Source: Tamlana crocina
GTDB taxonomy: Bacteria; Bacteroidota; Bacteroidia; Flavobacteriales; Flavobacteriaceae
Direction of reading: 5' to 3'
Assembly: GCA_040429635.1 (NCBI GenBank)
Contig: CP158972.1
Location: 2,986,001 to 3,050,000 of the forward strand
Length of the DNA: 64,000 nt
The notes under the pieces are model-generated. The model made no database searches, had not been told where the DNA came from, and worked only from the letters and a program-made list of their open reading frames with translations. The translations under genes and the position numbers were made by a program. Below are positions 50,770-56,243 of this stretch, in pieces (position 1 is the stretch's first letter; every line of letters starts with the position of its first letter).

Positions 50770-51564
50770 TTGATAGATTTTTTCCTGAGCAGTGACGCTA
50801 TAATGGCCTTGCTAACCCTTACGTTTTTAGAAATTATTTTAGGGATTGACAATATTGTTTTCATCTCTATTATCGCAAATAAATTACCAGAGCATCAACA
50901 ATCGAAAGCCACAAAAATCGGATTGATCTTAGCCATGGTACAACGTGTTGTGCTTTTATTTTTTGTTAGCTTTTTAGTGAGTTTAAAAGAACCGTTTTAT
51001 ACCATAAATTCTTCTTGGTTACAAATAGCCATAAGCTGGCAGGCAGTGATATTATTTGTTGGCGGACTGTTTTTAATCTACAAGAGCACCTCTGAAATCC
51101 ATGAAAAAGTAGAGCACCCAAAACACGATCAAAACCAACTTAACGAGAAAAAACTAAATAGCCTTTCGCAAGGCTTGGTTCAAATATTGATAATCGATTT
51201 TATCTTTTCAATCGATTCGATTTTAACCGCCGTAGGAATGACCAATGGGCTACACCCCAACAACAACTACACTTTGGTTTTAATGATAATTGCAGTAGTA
51301 ATCTCTATTATTATCATGATTGCGTTTGCCAACCCCATTCGAGAATTCATAAAAAAACATCCGAGTATGCAAATATTGGGCTTGGCGTTTTTAATATTAA
51401 TAGGTTTTATGCTGATAACAGAAGCAGCTCATCTTTCGCATACGAAATTGTTTGGAAACGAGGTGGGCGCCATACCAAAAGGCTATCTTTACTTTGCTAT
51501 TGCGTTTTCGTTGTTTATTGAATTCCTGAATTTTAGAATCAATAAAAACGCAAAAAAAATCTAA
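50770..51564 (+). CDS. TerC family membrane protein
   Basis: Inner-membrane protein of 264 residues with seven predicted helices. It starts with TTG (IDFFLSSDAIMALLTLTFLEIILGIDN). The family's acidic helix pairs are LEIILGIDNIVFISI and IIDFIFSIDSILTAVGM, associated with metal handling or tellurite resistance. The ion is unknown, and manganese export is one role known for the family. Its stop overlaps the parC stop by 4 bp (CTAA). Confidence 0.88.
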   Translation: MIDFFLSSDAIMALLTLTFLEIILGIDNIVFISIIANKLPEHQQSKATKIGLILAMVQRVVLLFFVSFLVSLKEPFYTINSSWLQIAISWQAVILFVGGLFLIYKSTSEIHEKVEHPKHDQNQLNEKKLNSLSQGLVQILIIDFIFSIDSILTAVGMTNGLHPNNNYTLVLMIIAVVISIIIMIAFANPIREFIKKHPSMQILGLAFLILIGFMLITEAAHLSHTKLFGNEVGAIPKGYLYFAIAFSLFIEFLNFRINKNAKKI

Positions 51565-54230
51565 AACAGCGAGGTTTGCCCTTCACTATCCATATCAAAA
51601 TCATCATTTCCGTTTTCTTTATCGGAATTGGAAGATTCTTGACTTTCATTGGCTGAAACCTTGGAAGACACATCGGTTTCATCAACCACTTCCAGGTCAT
51701 CGGCGTGTACTTCTTCAGGGGCTTCGTATGGCAACGGATCCAACAAATTAATTTGGTTCACTTTATCTTTGGTAAGTTGATTACCCAAAGCTGAAATCCC
51801 TTTAATAGCGATAAATTCTTCCAAGTTGATTTCTAAATTATCCTTTCTGTCTTTTCCGCGTTCTTTGGCAAAAACCACTTCGGCCATCGGTTTCCAATCG
51901 GTCGAAACAATTTCCAATTGCGAATTGGGGTGATCTGAAATAAAGGATTCTTCCTTACCTTCCTGCTCGATTAAAAAACGCTTAACGTAGTAAAGTTCTT
52001 TTTCCCCATTGTAATAGATGGCCGAAATAGGCTTTTTTGGAACCCATTTTTCCATAACAATCATATCGTCATCAAAATGCATCGTCACTTCGGGAGTAAC
52101 CGTTTTTACCATTCCGGTTTGATCAATAATCAACAGCTTGTCTTCGCCCCTAAATTCGCCAATCAGTTCGCCGCGTCCATCTAAATTCAAACGCTGAACG
52201 GTGTCATCAAACCAAATTTTTCGAGGTTTTAAAGTAGAAATCCCTTTCTCCTTCAACTCGACGCGCTTTACGGCATATTTGGTCACCACATTTCCTTTTG
52301 AGGCACGCCCTTTTATTAAAATATCGGCAAAATCGATATCCCATTTCAACTTTTTAATGCTGCCCGCTTGGCGCAACAATATGGTAACCACTTCGGCCTC
52401 ACCATTGGGGTTTGCAGAAAAATACAAGGTTACAGAACCTTTGTTTCCGTTGGTTAAATCATATTCCCTATCGCGGGTAATGCTGGTAACAGCAAAGCGT
52501 TTTATGTATGATGGCCCTTTTTTTCCATCGCGGTAAATCATGTTATAAATGGTGCGCTTGTCTTTCTTTTTGAAGACCGCCACGTGGATGATGTCTTTCC
52601 CCACAAAGGTTTTGGAATCCACTTTGGTTACCATCATTTTACCTTCTCTGGTAAACACGATAATATCGTCAATATCGCTACAATCGCACACGTATTCATC
52701 ACGGCGCAATGACGTGCCAATAAAACCTTCATCCCTATTTACATAAAGCTTGGTGTTTCTGATGACTACTTTTGTAGCATCAACATCATCAAAAATTCGG
52801 ATTTCTGTTTTGCGTTCGCGCCCCTCGCCATAGTCTTTTTTCAATCGCTTAAAATAGGCAATGGCATAATCGATTAAGTGTGCCAAATGATGCTTTACTT
52901 GGGCAATCTCTTCCTCTAAAGCATCAATTTTTTGTTGGGCTTTATCTATATCGAATTTTGAAATTCGTTTGATTCGAATTTCCGTTAACCGAACAATATC
53001 TTCTTCCGTTATGGCCCGTTTTAAATGTTTGATATGAGGCTGAAGTCCTTTGTCGATGGCTTGAATGACGCCTTCCCAAGTTTCTTCCTCTTCAATATCG
53101 CGGTATATTCGGTTTTCTATAAAAATACGTTCCAACGAAGCGAAATGCCACTGTTCTTCAAGTTCGCCCAATTTAATCTCGAGCTCCTGCTTTAAAAGCT
53201 GAACCGTGTTATCGGTACTTCTTCGAAGCATTTCTGAAACCCCGATAAAAAGCGGTTTATTGTCTTCAATAACGCAACCCAAGGGCGAAATGGAACTTTC
53301 GCAATTGGTAAAGGCATACAGCGCGTCGATGGTTTTGTCGGGCGACAAACCAGAAGGCAAATGCACCAATATTTCTACTTCGGCAGCTGTATTATCCTCA
53401 ATTTTCTTAATCTTGATTTTGCCTTTATCGTTAGCTTTTAAAATAGAATCGATTAACGAGGATGTGGTAGTACCAAAGGGCAGTTCGGTAATAGCCAAAG
53501 TGGTTTTGTCCACCTGCGAAATACGGGCACGAACACGTACCTTCCCGCCTCTTAAACCGTCATTATAATTGGAAAAATCGGCAATTCCAGCCGTTGGAAA
53601 ATCGGGCAATATTGTAAATCGTTTGCCTTGTAAATGCTTTATGGAAGCCTCGATAAGCTCCATAAAATTGTGCGGCAATATTTTGGTGGAAAGCCCAACG
53701 GCAATTCCCTCGCCACCTTGGGCCAATAGCAACGGAAACTTTACCGGTAAATTGATGGGCTCTTTACGGCGGCCGTCATAACTGGCCTGCCATTCGGTAA
53801 TTTTGGGACTGTAAACCACTTCTAAAGCAAATTTTGACAAACGTGCTTCGATGTAACGGGATGCCGCTGCACTGTCGCCCGTTAAGATGTTTCCCCAGTT
53901 CCCTTGGGTATCGATCAATAAATCTTTCTGACCGATTTGCACCATAGCATCGGCAATACTGGCATCGCCGTGCGGATGGTACTGCATGGTATGCCCCACA
54001 ATGTTGGCTACTTTGTTGTAGCGCCCATCGTCGAGGTCTTTCATAGAATGCATAATACGACGCTGAACGGGTTTAAAACCGTCTTCAATTGCGGGCACGG
54101 CCCGTTCTAAAATAACGTACGAGGCATAATCCAAAAACCAATCTTTATACATGCCCGTAACACGGGTTATGGTTTCTTGGGGCTCTCCGTCGTTTTTAAT
54201 TAAATCGTCGTCGTTTTCTTCTTCTATCAT
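51561..54230 (-). CDS. parC: Topoisomerase IV subunit A
   Basis: DNA cleavage/rejoining subunit of a type IIA topoisomerase, 889 residues. The catalytic tyrosine is Tyr 126 in AAASRYIEARL. The quinolone-region sequence is HPHGDASIADAM. The C-terminal propeller is less conserved than that of GyrA and lacks a clear GyrA box, supporting ParC. The last 50 residues are an acidic, serine-rich tail ending SEGQTSLF. It is downstream of parE with a small ORF between. Confidence 0.93.
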   Translation of the reverse strand: MIEEENDDDLIKNDGEPQETITRVTGMYKDWFLDYASYVILERAVPAIEDGFKPVQRRIMHSMKDLDDGRYNKVANIVGHTMQYHPHGDASIADAMVQIGQKDLLIDTQGNWGNILTGDSAAASRYIEARLSKFALEVVYSPKITEWQASYDGRRKEPINLPVKFPLLLAQGGEGIAVGLSTKILPHNFMELIEASIKHLQGKRFTILPDFPTAGIADFSNYNDGLRGGKVRVRARISQVDKTTLAITELPFGTTTSSLIDSILKANDKGKIKIKKIEDNTAAEVEILVHLPSGLSPDKTIDALYAFTNCESSISPLGCVIEDNKPLFIGVSEMLRRSTDNTVQLLKQELEIKLGELEEQWHFASLERIFIENRIYRDIEEEETWEGVIQAIDKGLQPHIKHLKRAITEEDIVRLTEIRIKRISKFDIDKAQQKIDALEEEIAQVKHHLAHLIDYAIAYFKRLKKDYGEGRERKTEIRIFDDVDATKVVIRNTKLYVNRDEGFIGTSLRRDEYVCDCSDIDDIIVFTREGKMMVTKVDSKTFVGKDIIHVAVFKKKDKRTIYNMIYRDGKKGPSYIKRFAVTSITRDREYDLTNGNKGSVTLYFSANPNGEAEVVTILLRQAGSIKKLKWDIDFADILIKGRASKGNVVTKYAVKRVELKEKGISTLKPRKIWFDDTVQRLNLDGRGELIGEFRGEDKLLIIDQTGMVKTVTPEVTMHFDDDMIVMEKWVPKKPISAIYYNGEKELYYVKRFLIEQEGKEESFISDHPNSQLEIVSTDWKPMAEVVFAKERGKDRKDNLEINLEEFIAIKGISALGNQLTKDKVNQINLLDPLPYEAPEEVHADDLEVVDETDVSSKVSANESQESSNSDKENGNDDFDMDSEGQTSLF

Positions 54231-54236
54231 TAAAAG

Positions 54237-54368
54237 CTATTCTTGATTTTTAGGCTTTCCGTTTAACGTTACCTTACCTACTCTTTGCAACCTATGCACT
54301 TGCTCGCTACTGGTGTGCTTTCTCAAGTATTCATAAGATCGCTTTTTAACATTTTTATTGTACAACAT
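54237..54368 (-). CDS. Candidate small basic protein between parE and parC (43 aa)
   Basis: Uninterrupted 44-codon frame beginning MLYNKNVKKRSYEYLRKHT and ending LNGKPKNQE. It starts 21 bp after the parE stop and ends 6 bp before the parC ATG, filling the whole intergenic gap on the same strand. It is basic (11 K/R in 43) with no membrane segment. Not recognised as any family. The tight spacing supports translation; the short length means chance is possible. Confidence 0.5.
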   Translation of the reverse strand: MLYNKNVKKRSYEYLRKHTSSEQVHRLQRVGKVTLNGKPKNQE

Positions 54369-54389
54369 AACTGTTTAATTTTATTTAGT

Positions 54390-56243
54390 TTATTCTTCTA
54401 TTACATCCATTTCCACCTTCAAATTGTCGATGATAAACTCCTGTCTTGTTGGCGTATTTTTGCCCATGTAAAACGACAACAGCTCATCGATGGACATGCC
54501 CTCGTCCAACATTACGGGATCCAATCGCATATCGTCCCCAATAAAATGTTTGAACTCGTCGGGCGAAATTTCCCCAAGTCCTTTAAATCGTGTTATTTCA
54601 GGCTTTGGTTTTAGTTTGTTAATCGCATTAACACGCTCTTCCTCTGTGTAGCAATAAATGGTTTCCTTTTTATTTCGAACACGGAACAATGGCGTTTGTA
54701 AAATATATAAATGCCCTTCTTTGATTACCTCTGGAAAAAACTGAAGGAAGAACGTAATGAGCAACAACCGGATATGCATACCATCAACATCGGCATCGGT
54801 GGCGATAACCACGTTGTTGTAACGCAAATCTTCGAGTGATTCCTCAATATTTAAAGCCGCTTGAAGCAGGTTGAATTCTTCGTTTTCGTAAACAATTTTC
54901 TTTGTAAGCCCATAACAATTCAAAGGTTTTCCTTTTAAACTGAATACGGCTTGCGTATTGACATCGCGCGATTTGGTGATACTTCCCGAAGCCGAATCTC
55001 CCTCGGTAATAAACAGAGTAGTTTCTAAGTTTCGGTCGTTTTTGGTATCGCCAAAATGCACACGGCAATCACGTAATTTTTTGTTGTGCAGGCTGGCTTT
55101 TTTGGCACGGTCTCTTGCTAATTTTCGGATGCCCGAAAGCTCCTTTCGTTCACGTTCTGCCTGCAAAATTTTACGTTGAATTTTTTCGGCCGTATCTGCA
55201 TTTTTGTGCAGATAATTATCGAGTTGGGTCTTAACAAAATCGTTAATGTACGTTCGAACCGTTGGGTAATCACCACCCATATCGGTAGAACCAAGCTTTG
55301 TTTTGGTCTGACTCTCGAAAACAGGCTCCATCACTTTTATGGAAATGGCCGCTACAACCGATTTCCTAACATCGGAAGCATCGTAATTCTTTCCGTAAAA
55401 CTCCCGAATGGTTTTTACCAAAGCTTCACGGAAGGCATTTAAATGCGTCCCTCCTTGAGTGGTATTTTGTCCGTTAACAAACGAATGGTACTCTTCGCTA
55501 TACTGGGTTTTATTGTGGGTTAATGCCACTTCAATATCGTCGCCACGTAAATGAATGATAGGATACAGCAAATCGGATTCATTGATATTTTCGTTCAACA
55601 AATCCTTTAATCCGTTTTCACTGAAATACTTTTCACCGTTAAAAACAATGGTCAACCCCGGGTTGAGGTACACATAGTTTTTAAGCATTTTCACCACATA
55701 TTCACTTCTGAATTTGTAGTTTTTAAAAATGGTGCCATCGGGAACGAAGGACACTTTAGTTCCTTTTCTTCGGGAAGTATCGTCAAGGCTTTCTTCATTC
55801 GTGAGGTTACCCTGCTCGAATTCCGCGGAAGCTGATTTTCCGTCACGCGTCGATTCCACCCTAAAATAAGTTGAAAGGGCATTAACTGCCTTGGTACCTA
55901 CCCCATTCAATCCCACCGATTTTTTGAAGGCCTTGGAGTCGTATTTTCCGCCAGTGTTCATTTTCGAAACCACATCGACCACCTTCCCCAGCGGAATGCC
56001 TCGTCCGTAATCGCGAACAATCACTTTATTCCCCTGGATGGAAATTTCGATGGTCTTTCCGGCGCCCATTACAAATTCATCGATGGAGTTATCCAGAACC
56101 TCTTTCAGTAGGATATAAATACCATCGTCTGGCGAGCTTCCATCGCCCAATTTACCGATATACATACCGGGGCGCATTCTAATATGCTCCTTCCAGTCTA
56201 ACGAACGTATATTGTCTTCGGTATAATTGGTTTCTTCCGCCAT
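54390..56243 (-). CDS. parE: Topoisomerase IV subunit B
   Basis: ATPase subunit of topoisomerase IV, 617 residues, clearly shorter than GyrB and lacking its insert. The GHKL ATP site shows [28 protein letters not shown] and [14 protein letters not shown]. The Toprim region has [12 protein letters not shown] and [18 protein letters not shown]. The protein ends [18 protein letters not shown]. It heads an operon with the 43-aa ORF and parC. Confidence 0.95.

Follow-up and report, generated by a model that had tools for sequence, protein, structure and literature searches.

The closest described case of a small protein acting on a type II topoisomerase is YacG of the proteobacteria, a gyrase inhibitor of 65 amino acids that contains a zinc finger and binds GyrB. 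YacG is reported not to inhibit topoisomerase IV (PMC10886550). A broader frame of reference is the GMSC catalogue, which contains lineage-specific families of conserved small proteins (PMC11364881). Here we consider a microprotein gene of Tamlana crocina that lies between the two genes for topoisomerase IV.

The locus is contained in the window, the whole 64,000-nucleotide stretch of T. crocina DNA that was analysed, and all three of its genes are on the minus strand. The upstream gene (56243..54390) has gyrB/parE-type domains according to Pfam and NCBIfam, and it is labelled parE (topoisomerase IV subunit B) because parC adjoins. The downstream gene, parC (54230..51561), encodes topoisomerase IV subunit A and is recognized by the same two libraries. 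Between them is an ORF of 43 codons plus a stop, running from an ATG to a TAG (54368..54237), with a product that reads MLY...KRSYEYL...GKVTLNGKPKNQE and with a case as a gene that is built on its anatomy, its homologues and purifying selection. The parE stop is separated from its start codon by 21 nt (54369..54389), which include bases of the initiation context considered below, and its own stop is followed by 6 nt before the parC start (54231..54236). These coordinates bear out the initial annotation, which proposed a 43-codon frame on this strand with spacers of 21 and 6 bp. The description of the product as basic and soluble also fits the sequence, from which a pI of 10.4, a charge of +7.7 and a GRAVY of -1.46 are computed. 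The gene is single-copy in the T. crocina genome. Could a frame of this size be an accident? The 159-nt parE-parC gap was shuffled 2000 times by dinucleotides; with ATG, GTG and TTG starts allowed in the three sense frames, 0.2% of the shuffles contain an ORF of at least 43 amino acids. Alone this is thin support, and conservation is the deciding evidence for a gene.

That evidence comes from a profile search, which finds homologues at E <= 1.5e-7 in 28 of 299 sampled Flavobacteriaceae genomes from 23 genera (as defined by the group codes of the genome collection). The profile was made from 23 loci (L001-L021, L025 and L026), so 23 of the 28 positives are its own rows; the five beyond them are G071, G110, G115, G121 and G134. 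The next match after the 28 is at E 0.009. Every match in the 28 positives is located between parE and parC when its flanks are read, and the same profile finds no second copy elsewhere in these genomes. The conserved frame that the initial annotation suggested looking for in the gap of other Flavobacteriaceae is therefore present. A search of the 299 genomes with the single T. crocina protein gives matches in 62 of them at E <= 1, and 23 of these loci are in the parE-parC gap. The gene is found in all three genomes of its own genus, and a pattern scan of named genomes for the C-terminal motif gives 22 loci, including ones from Algibacter (also Flavobacteriaceae), Tamlana, Hyunsoonleella and Yeosuana. 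No credible further member was found in 296 order-level and 296 phylum-level genomes, samples that overlap the family set. The best match there (E 5.7e-4) was rejected as a 29-residue stretch with an internal stop, and L179 was rejected as a member of the family since it is without a parE or parC match.

Extraction from 53 loci gave 52 ORFs, and the removal of 14 duplicates left 38 distinct ones. One of these, L086, is a doubtful homologue (3.3 bits, picked by eye) that is counted among the 38 but entered neither the profile nor the tally of start contexts. The proteins have 42-48 residues and a pI of 9.7-11.9, and they are very basic and hydrophilic throughout. Their consensus is MLYNKxKxxxKKRSYDYLHxHxxxxxVxRLxKxGRVMLNGKPK, with conservation that spans the N-terminus (MLY), the middle (KRSYDYL) and the C-terminus (LNGKPK). 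The common MLY start is partly built in, because extraction required M-[L or F]-Y. However, this cost no ORF, L179 being the only one of the 53 loci that failed to yield one, and M1, L2 and Y3 are invariant in the 23 profile rows, which were gathered without the requirement. There is one cysteine in the 38 ORFs (in L137) and no cysteine pair. The stop codon is 0-13 nt before parC in 34 of the 38 and overlaps the parC start in two (L137 and L138). L010 and L015 differ, for there a further gene follows the ORF and 533-534 nt separate its stop from parC. Across the family the stop codon, the spacing and the frame relative to parC all vary.

The pattern of substitution points to selection on the protein. 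Eight disjoint close pairs, chosen by hand as six of the closest plus two for breadth, have a pooled pS of 0.430 and pN of 0.083, giving a pN/pS of 0.19 (Fisher p 1.4e-29). The ratio is 1.22 and 1.67 in the +1 and +2 sense frames and 1.44, 0.34 and 1.45 in the antisense frames, the 0.34 frame being the one that shares the wobble position. Compared with its nearest relative, L054, the T. crocina ORF has a dS of 0.89, a dN of 0.040 and a dN/dS of 0.05. Over all pairs pS is 0.63 and pN 0.35, with synonymous sites near saturation. A dN/dS analysis had been proposed by the initial annotation, and both the pooled pN/pS and the dN/dS of the T. crocina ORF indicate that purifying selection is acting at the protein level. 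In the eight pairs pN is 0.038-0.141 for the microprotein, 0.010-0.043 for parE and 0.008-0.033 for parC. The ratio of the microprotein value to that of the flanking gene is 1.1 to 3.8 for parE and 2.1 to 5.6 for parC, so the microprotein is less constrained than its neighbours. Judging from conservation and codon pattern, this is almost certainly a real protein-coding gene and not a chance frame.

The region before the ORF also has features expected of a gene. An A is found at -13 and at -12 in 34 of 37 starts each, at -6 in 29 and at -3 in 25, with G at -3 in nine, against a background of 55% A across the 18-nt region before the starts. A ribosome-profiling study of Flavobacterium johnsoniae lists -3, -6, -12 and -13 as positive determinants of initiation (PMC6847099). 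The microprotein starts carry this Flavobacterium initiation signature, and the T. crocina ORF has three of the four positions (A at -6, -12 and -13, with G at -3). A second feature is the sequence TAnnTTTG, the -7 box (PMC9723704). It occurs upstream of the ORF in 22 of the 26 gaps of at least 97 nt, as against 4.8 expected by shuffling, an excess that is descriptive because related genomes are not independent. In 20 of these 26 long-gap genomes it is 55-105 nt before the start. Loci with the box at this distance include L004-L007, L009, L012, L013, L016 and L021, as well as L055, L136, L137, L139 and others; in L018 and L025 it is inside an additional gene. Microprotein-free gaps have TAnnTTTG in 12 of 47 cases as against 14.2 expected, but most of them hold another gene, which makes the two sets unequal. 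If only gaps of at least 97 nt that lack any other ORF of 50 or more codons are compared, 20 of the 23 with the microprotein contain the box, whereas of the nine without the microprotein two contain it at any position. The promoter-like box and the microprotein gene occur together as if travelling jointly.

The box is absent from the 21-nt gap of T. crocina, where transcription probably runs on from parE into the ORF. In the long-gap genomes the position of the box suggests that the ORF may lead a transcript with parC. The proposal of a translated linker gene in the topoisomerase IV operon is upheld in part. A translated gene in the cluster is strongly supported by its presence at this site in 28 of 299 genomes, the pooled pN/pS and the flavobacterial start context described above. 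The words "linker gene in the operon" have to be qualified, because most long gaps have a promoter-like box after parE and ahead of the ORF.

What of the relatives that do not have the gene? The remaining 271 of the 299 family genomes have no match at E <= 1.5e-7, and parC was detected in 295 of the 299. From the parC list 75 profile-negative genomes were fetched (60 from its upper part, some skipped, and 15 from lower down), and 74 of them, L086 included, have parE within 1.5 kb of parC. In 73 of these 74 gaps parE and parC are kept without the microprotein; the remaining gap is that of the doubtful L086. The initial annotation had treated relatives with no ORF in the gap as evidence against the gene. 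This objection applies in half: the microprotein is lineage-restricted and dispensable, but not spurious. A search of the negative gaps, read in the sense direction, found no microprotein remnant (best E 2).

Instead, other genes are often found there. The commonest gap gene in the sampled relatives encodes a membrane protein of about 160 amino acids, seen by eye in 25 of the 74 negative gaps and matched in Pfam only below threshold (DUF1761, E 1.1e-4). It has the pattern MRTNN...KYFEYDSDG...RKKRKYIRQSL (e.g., L076, L078, L089, L090 and L092), and L010 and L015 carry it in addition to the microprotein. A zinc-ribbon-like protein of about 110 amino acids with membrane segments is encoded in the gap of L082 and, upstream of the microprotein, in L018 and L025. 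There are also lipoprotein-like genes (L079, L100 and L102) and a GIY-YIG-like gene (L080), all labelled by eye. By the same inspection, other negative gaps encode a membrane protein of about 60 amino acids and many are without an evident gene. Within Flavobacteriaceae, then, the parE-parC gap accepts exchangeable genes and their turnover there is fast. A tree made by a quick method from parE C-terminal fragments, which is poorly resolved (two of 107 inner branches starred), groups 36 of the 38 positives with 29 negatives in a single supported clade (65 rows); L061 and L086 are outside. The parE tree needs 17 presence/absence changes, so several losses are likely, with gain and loss not separated. 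Within one clade, then, the gene seems to be old, and repeated loss or replacement is probable.

Searches beyond the family return little. The microprotein has no match at E <= 0.001 in Pfam, NCBIfam, PHROGs or PDB sequences. Matches of single members to Pfam (best RQC, 0.013) and PHROGs (best 0.017) were taken as chance, as were those to L28 and uS10 among PDB sequences (best E 0.65 and 0.14). AlphaFold2 models of the T. crocina protein and L058 are of low confidence (pLDDT 65 and 68), and both have two short helices and, after these, isolated bridge residues, so the predicted fold is probably two short helices and then an extended tail. Foldseek finds nothing at E <= 0.001 for either model. 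For the L058 model against the PDB, the best E is 1.1 among the best 50 of 52 matches, and these 50 include chain E of the wheat 40S subunit at E 7.0, which may be eS4, an S4-domain protein. The titles and abstract openings of the literature matches listed make no mention of an ORF in the parE-parC gap. The microproteins constitute a small-protein family that has no model in the libraries searched and has a fixed address in the topoisomerase IV cluster.

The initial annotation suggested that the product could bind DNA or the enzyme, a candidate role to which its charge and location point. Most likely it is a small protein that binds nucleic acid or serves topoisomerase IV as an accessory. Made together with ParC, the microprotein would act in trans as an accessory protein with affinity for nucleic acid. 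Its contact would most plausibly be with topoisomerase IV or the DNA of that enzyme, which it would thereby tune, and it would be useful and not essential. Conservation over the whole length together with the high pI is more in keeping with a working basic protein than with a leader peptide. We give this reading as a whole about an even chance. That topoisomerase IV itself is the partner, a point suggested by location, is possible and rather doubtful. The protein has no known domain, its fold matches are not significant and its models are of low confidence, so that a binding partner cannot be named. Further observations count against an accessory role. The gene is missing from many relatives that have parE and parC, its pN exceeds that of both neighbours, and in L010 and L015 another gene separates it from parC. 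The common location may also be mere vertical inheritance within one family. A bolder version is somewhat unlikely: a dedicated, clade-specific small subunit or modulator of topoisomerase IV that arrived in the parE-parC gap with its own promoter, partly freed parC from parE transcription and tunes decatenation. To our knowledge, a dedicated topoisomerase IV microprotein would be the first.

Perhaps the microprotein instead binds RNA as a minimal S4-like (alpha-L) protein, with the ribosome or some other RNA as its target, and has only its transcript in common with parC. One clue comes from a profile-profile comparison with five S4 domains of the same genome, which scores 22.1 (prob 54%). Controls were column-permuted, window, block-permuted and reversed; none of 400 column-permuted profiles reaches this score (peak 16.7), and 96 parE windows peak at 12.4. 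By eye, the order R....L ... S......L...GRVxLNG agrees with S4, and the two helices of both AlphaFold2 models are in S4-like order ahead of the bridge residues. However, nine of 400 controls reach the score when columns are permuted in blocks of six (maximum 25.2), which means that a single short local motif supplies most of the signal. Moreover, neither Pfam (23 members and three consensus sequences) nor PDB sequences give an S4 match, and Foldseek, as stated above, finds nothing at E <= 0.001. The resemblance of the C-terminal half to the S4 RNA-binding motif is suggestive only, a lead, and an S4-like protein of this kind seems quite unlikely. The first prompt for S4 was a set of weak out-of-slot profile matches (E 0.009-0.09), now rejected. 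Eleven of the 13 fetched are one orthologous protein, methylmalonyl-CoA epimerase according to NCBIfam TIGR03081 (one of the 11 scanned), and the other two are long unrelated frames. As matches to another protein they have no bearing on S4.

What if the peptide itself does little? As a cis-acting leader ORF, its translation, or stalling at the C-terminal GKPK, would set the ParC level by coupling. This would suit an ORF that adjoins parC in 36 of 38 cases, that in many genomes would be the first of the parC transcript given the upstream promoter-like box, and that has a well conserved C-terminal LNGKPK. The microprotein pS, below that of both parE and parC in five of the eight pairs, could also mean some nucleotide constraint. 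Nevertheless, the MLY and KRSYDYL blocks are as conserved as the C-terminus, two loci have a gene between the ORF and parC, and the stop codon, spacing and frame relative to parC vary, all of which makes a leader rather unlikely. The low pS, with the compactness of the region and its closeness to parC, could also be ascribed to a conserved RNA or DNA element in which the open frame is incidental. However, substitutions are mostly synonymous in the ORF frame, the only other low-ratio frame is the one sharing its wobble position, third codon positions vary most, and Rfam has no match at E <= 1 for 54100..54500. The frame-specific pattern largely contradicts such an element, which we consider exceedingly improbable. 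A function that has nothing to do with topoisomerase IV or nucleic acid (e.g., membrane, stress or phage-related), in a slot that tolerates passengers, would suit the unrelated cargo in the gap of relatives. It is unlikely to much the same degree as a leader, since the protein is very basic and hydrophilic throughout and the 28 genomes have no copy at another place. The trans-acting accessory protein is the preferred reading. Binding to topoisomerase IV, if true, would make the microprotein a natural regulator acting on a major antibiotic target and on chromosome separation. Even without such binding it defines a well-bounded small-protein family with a clear presence/absence pattern, and its function is testable because the gene occurs in named, isolated strains.

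How does this compare with known systems? The S4 domain (PF01479) shares with the microprotein the order helix, helix, GxVxxNG and a weak profile-profile similarity, but the microprotein is shorter between the helices, lacks the last strand (by eye) and has no sequence-search match to it. The families of the GMSC catalogue are similar in that a short ORF is established by conservation and codon pattern, whereas the microprotein adds a fixed topoisomerase IV address and, in most long-gap genomes, a promoter-like box. YacG resembles what is proposed here in its small size and in having a type II topoisomerase as its target. The YacG family has no sequence match to the microprotein in Pfam or NCBIfam, and unlike YacG the microprotein has no cysteine pair, and hence no zinc finger, and is encoded inside the topoisomerase IV cluster itself.
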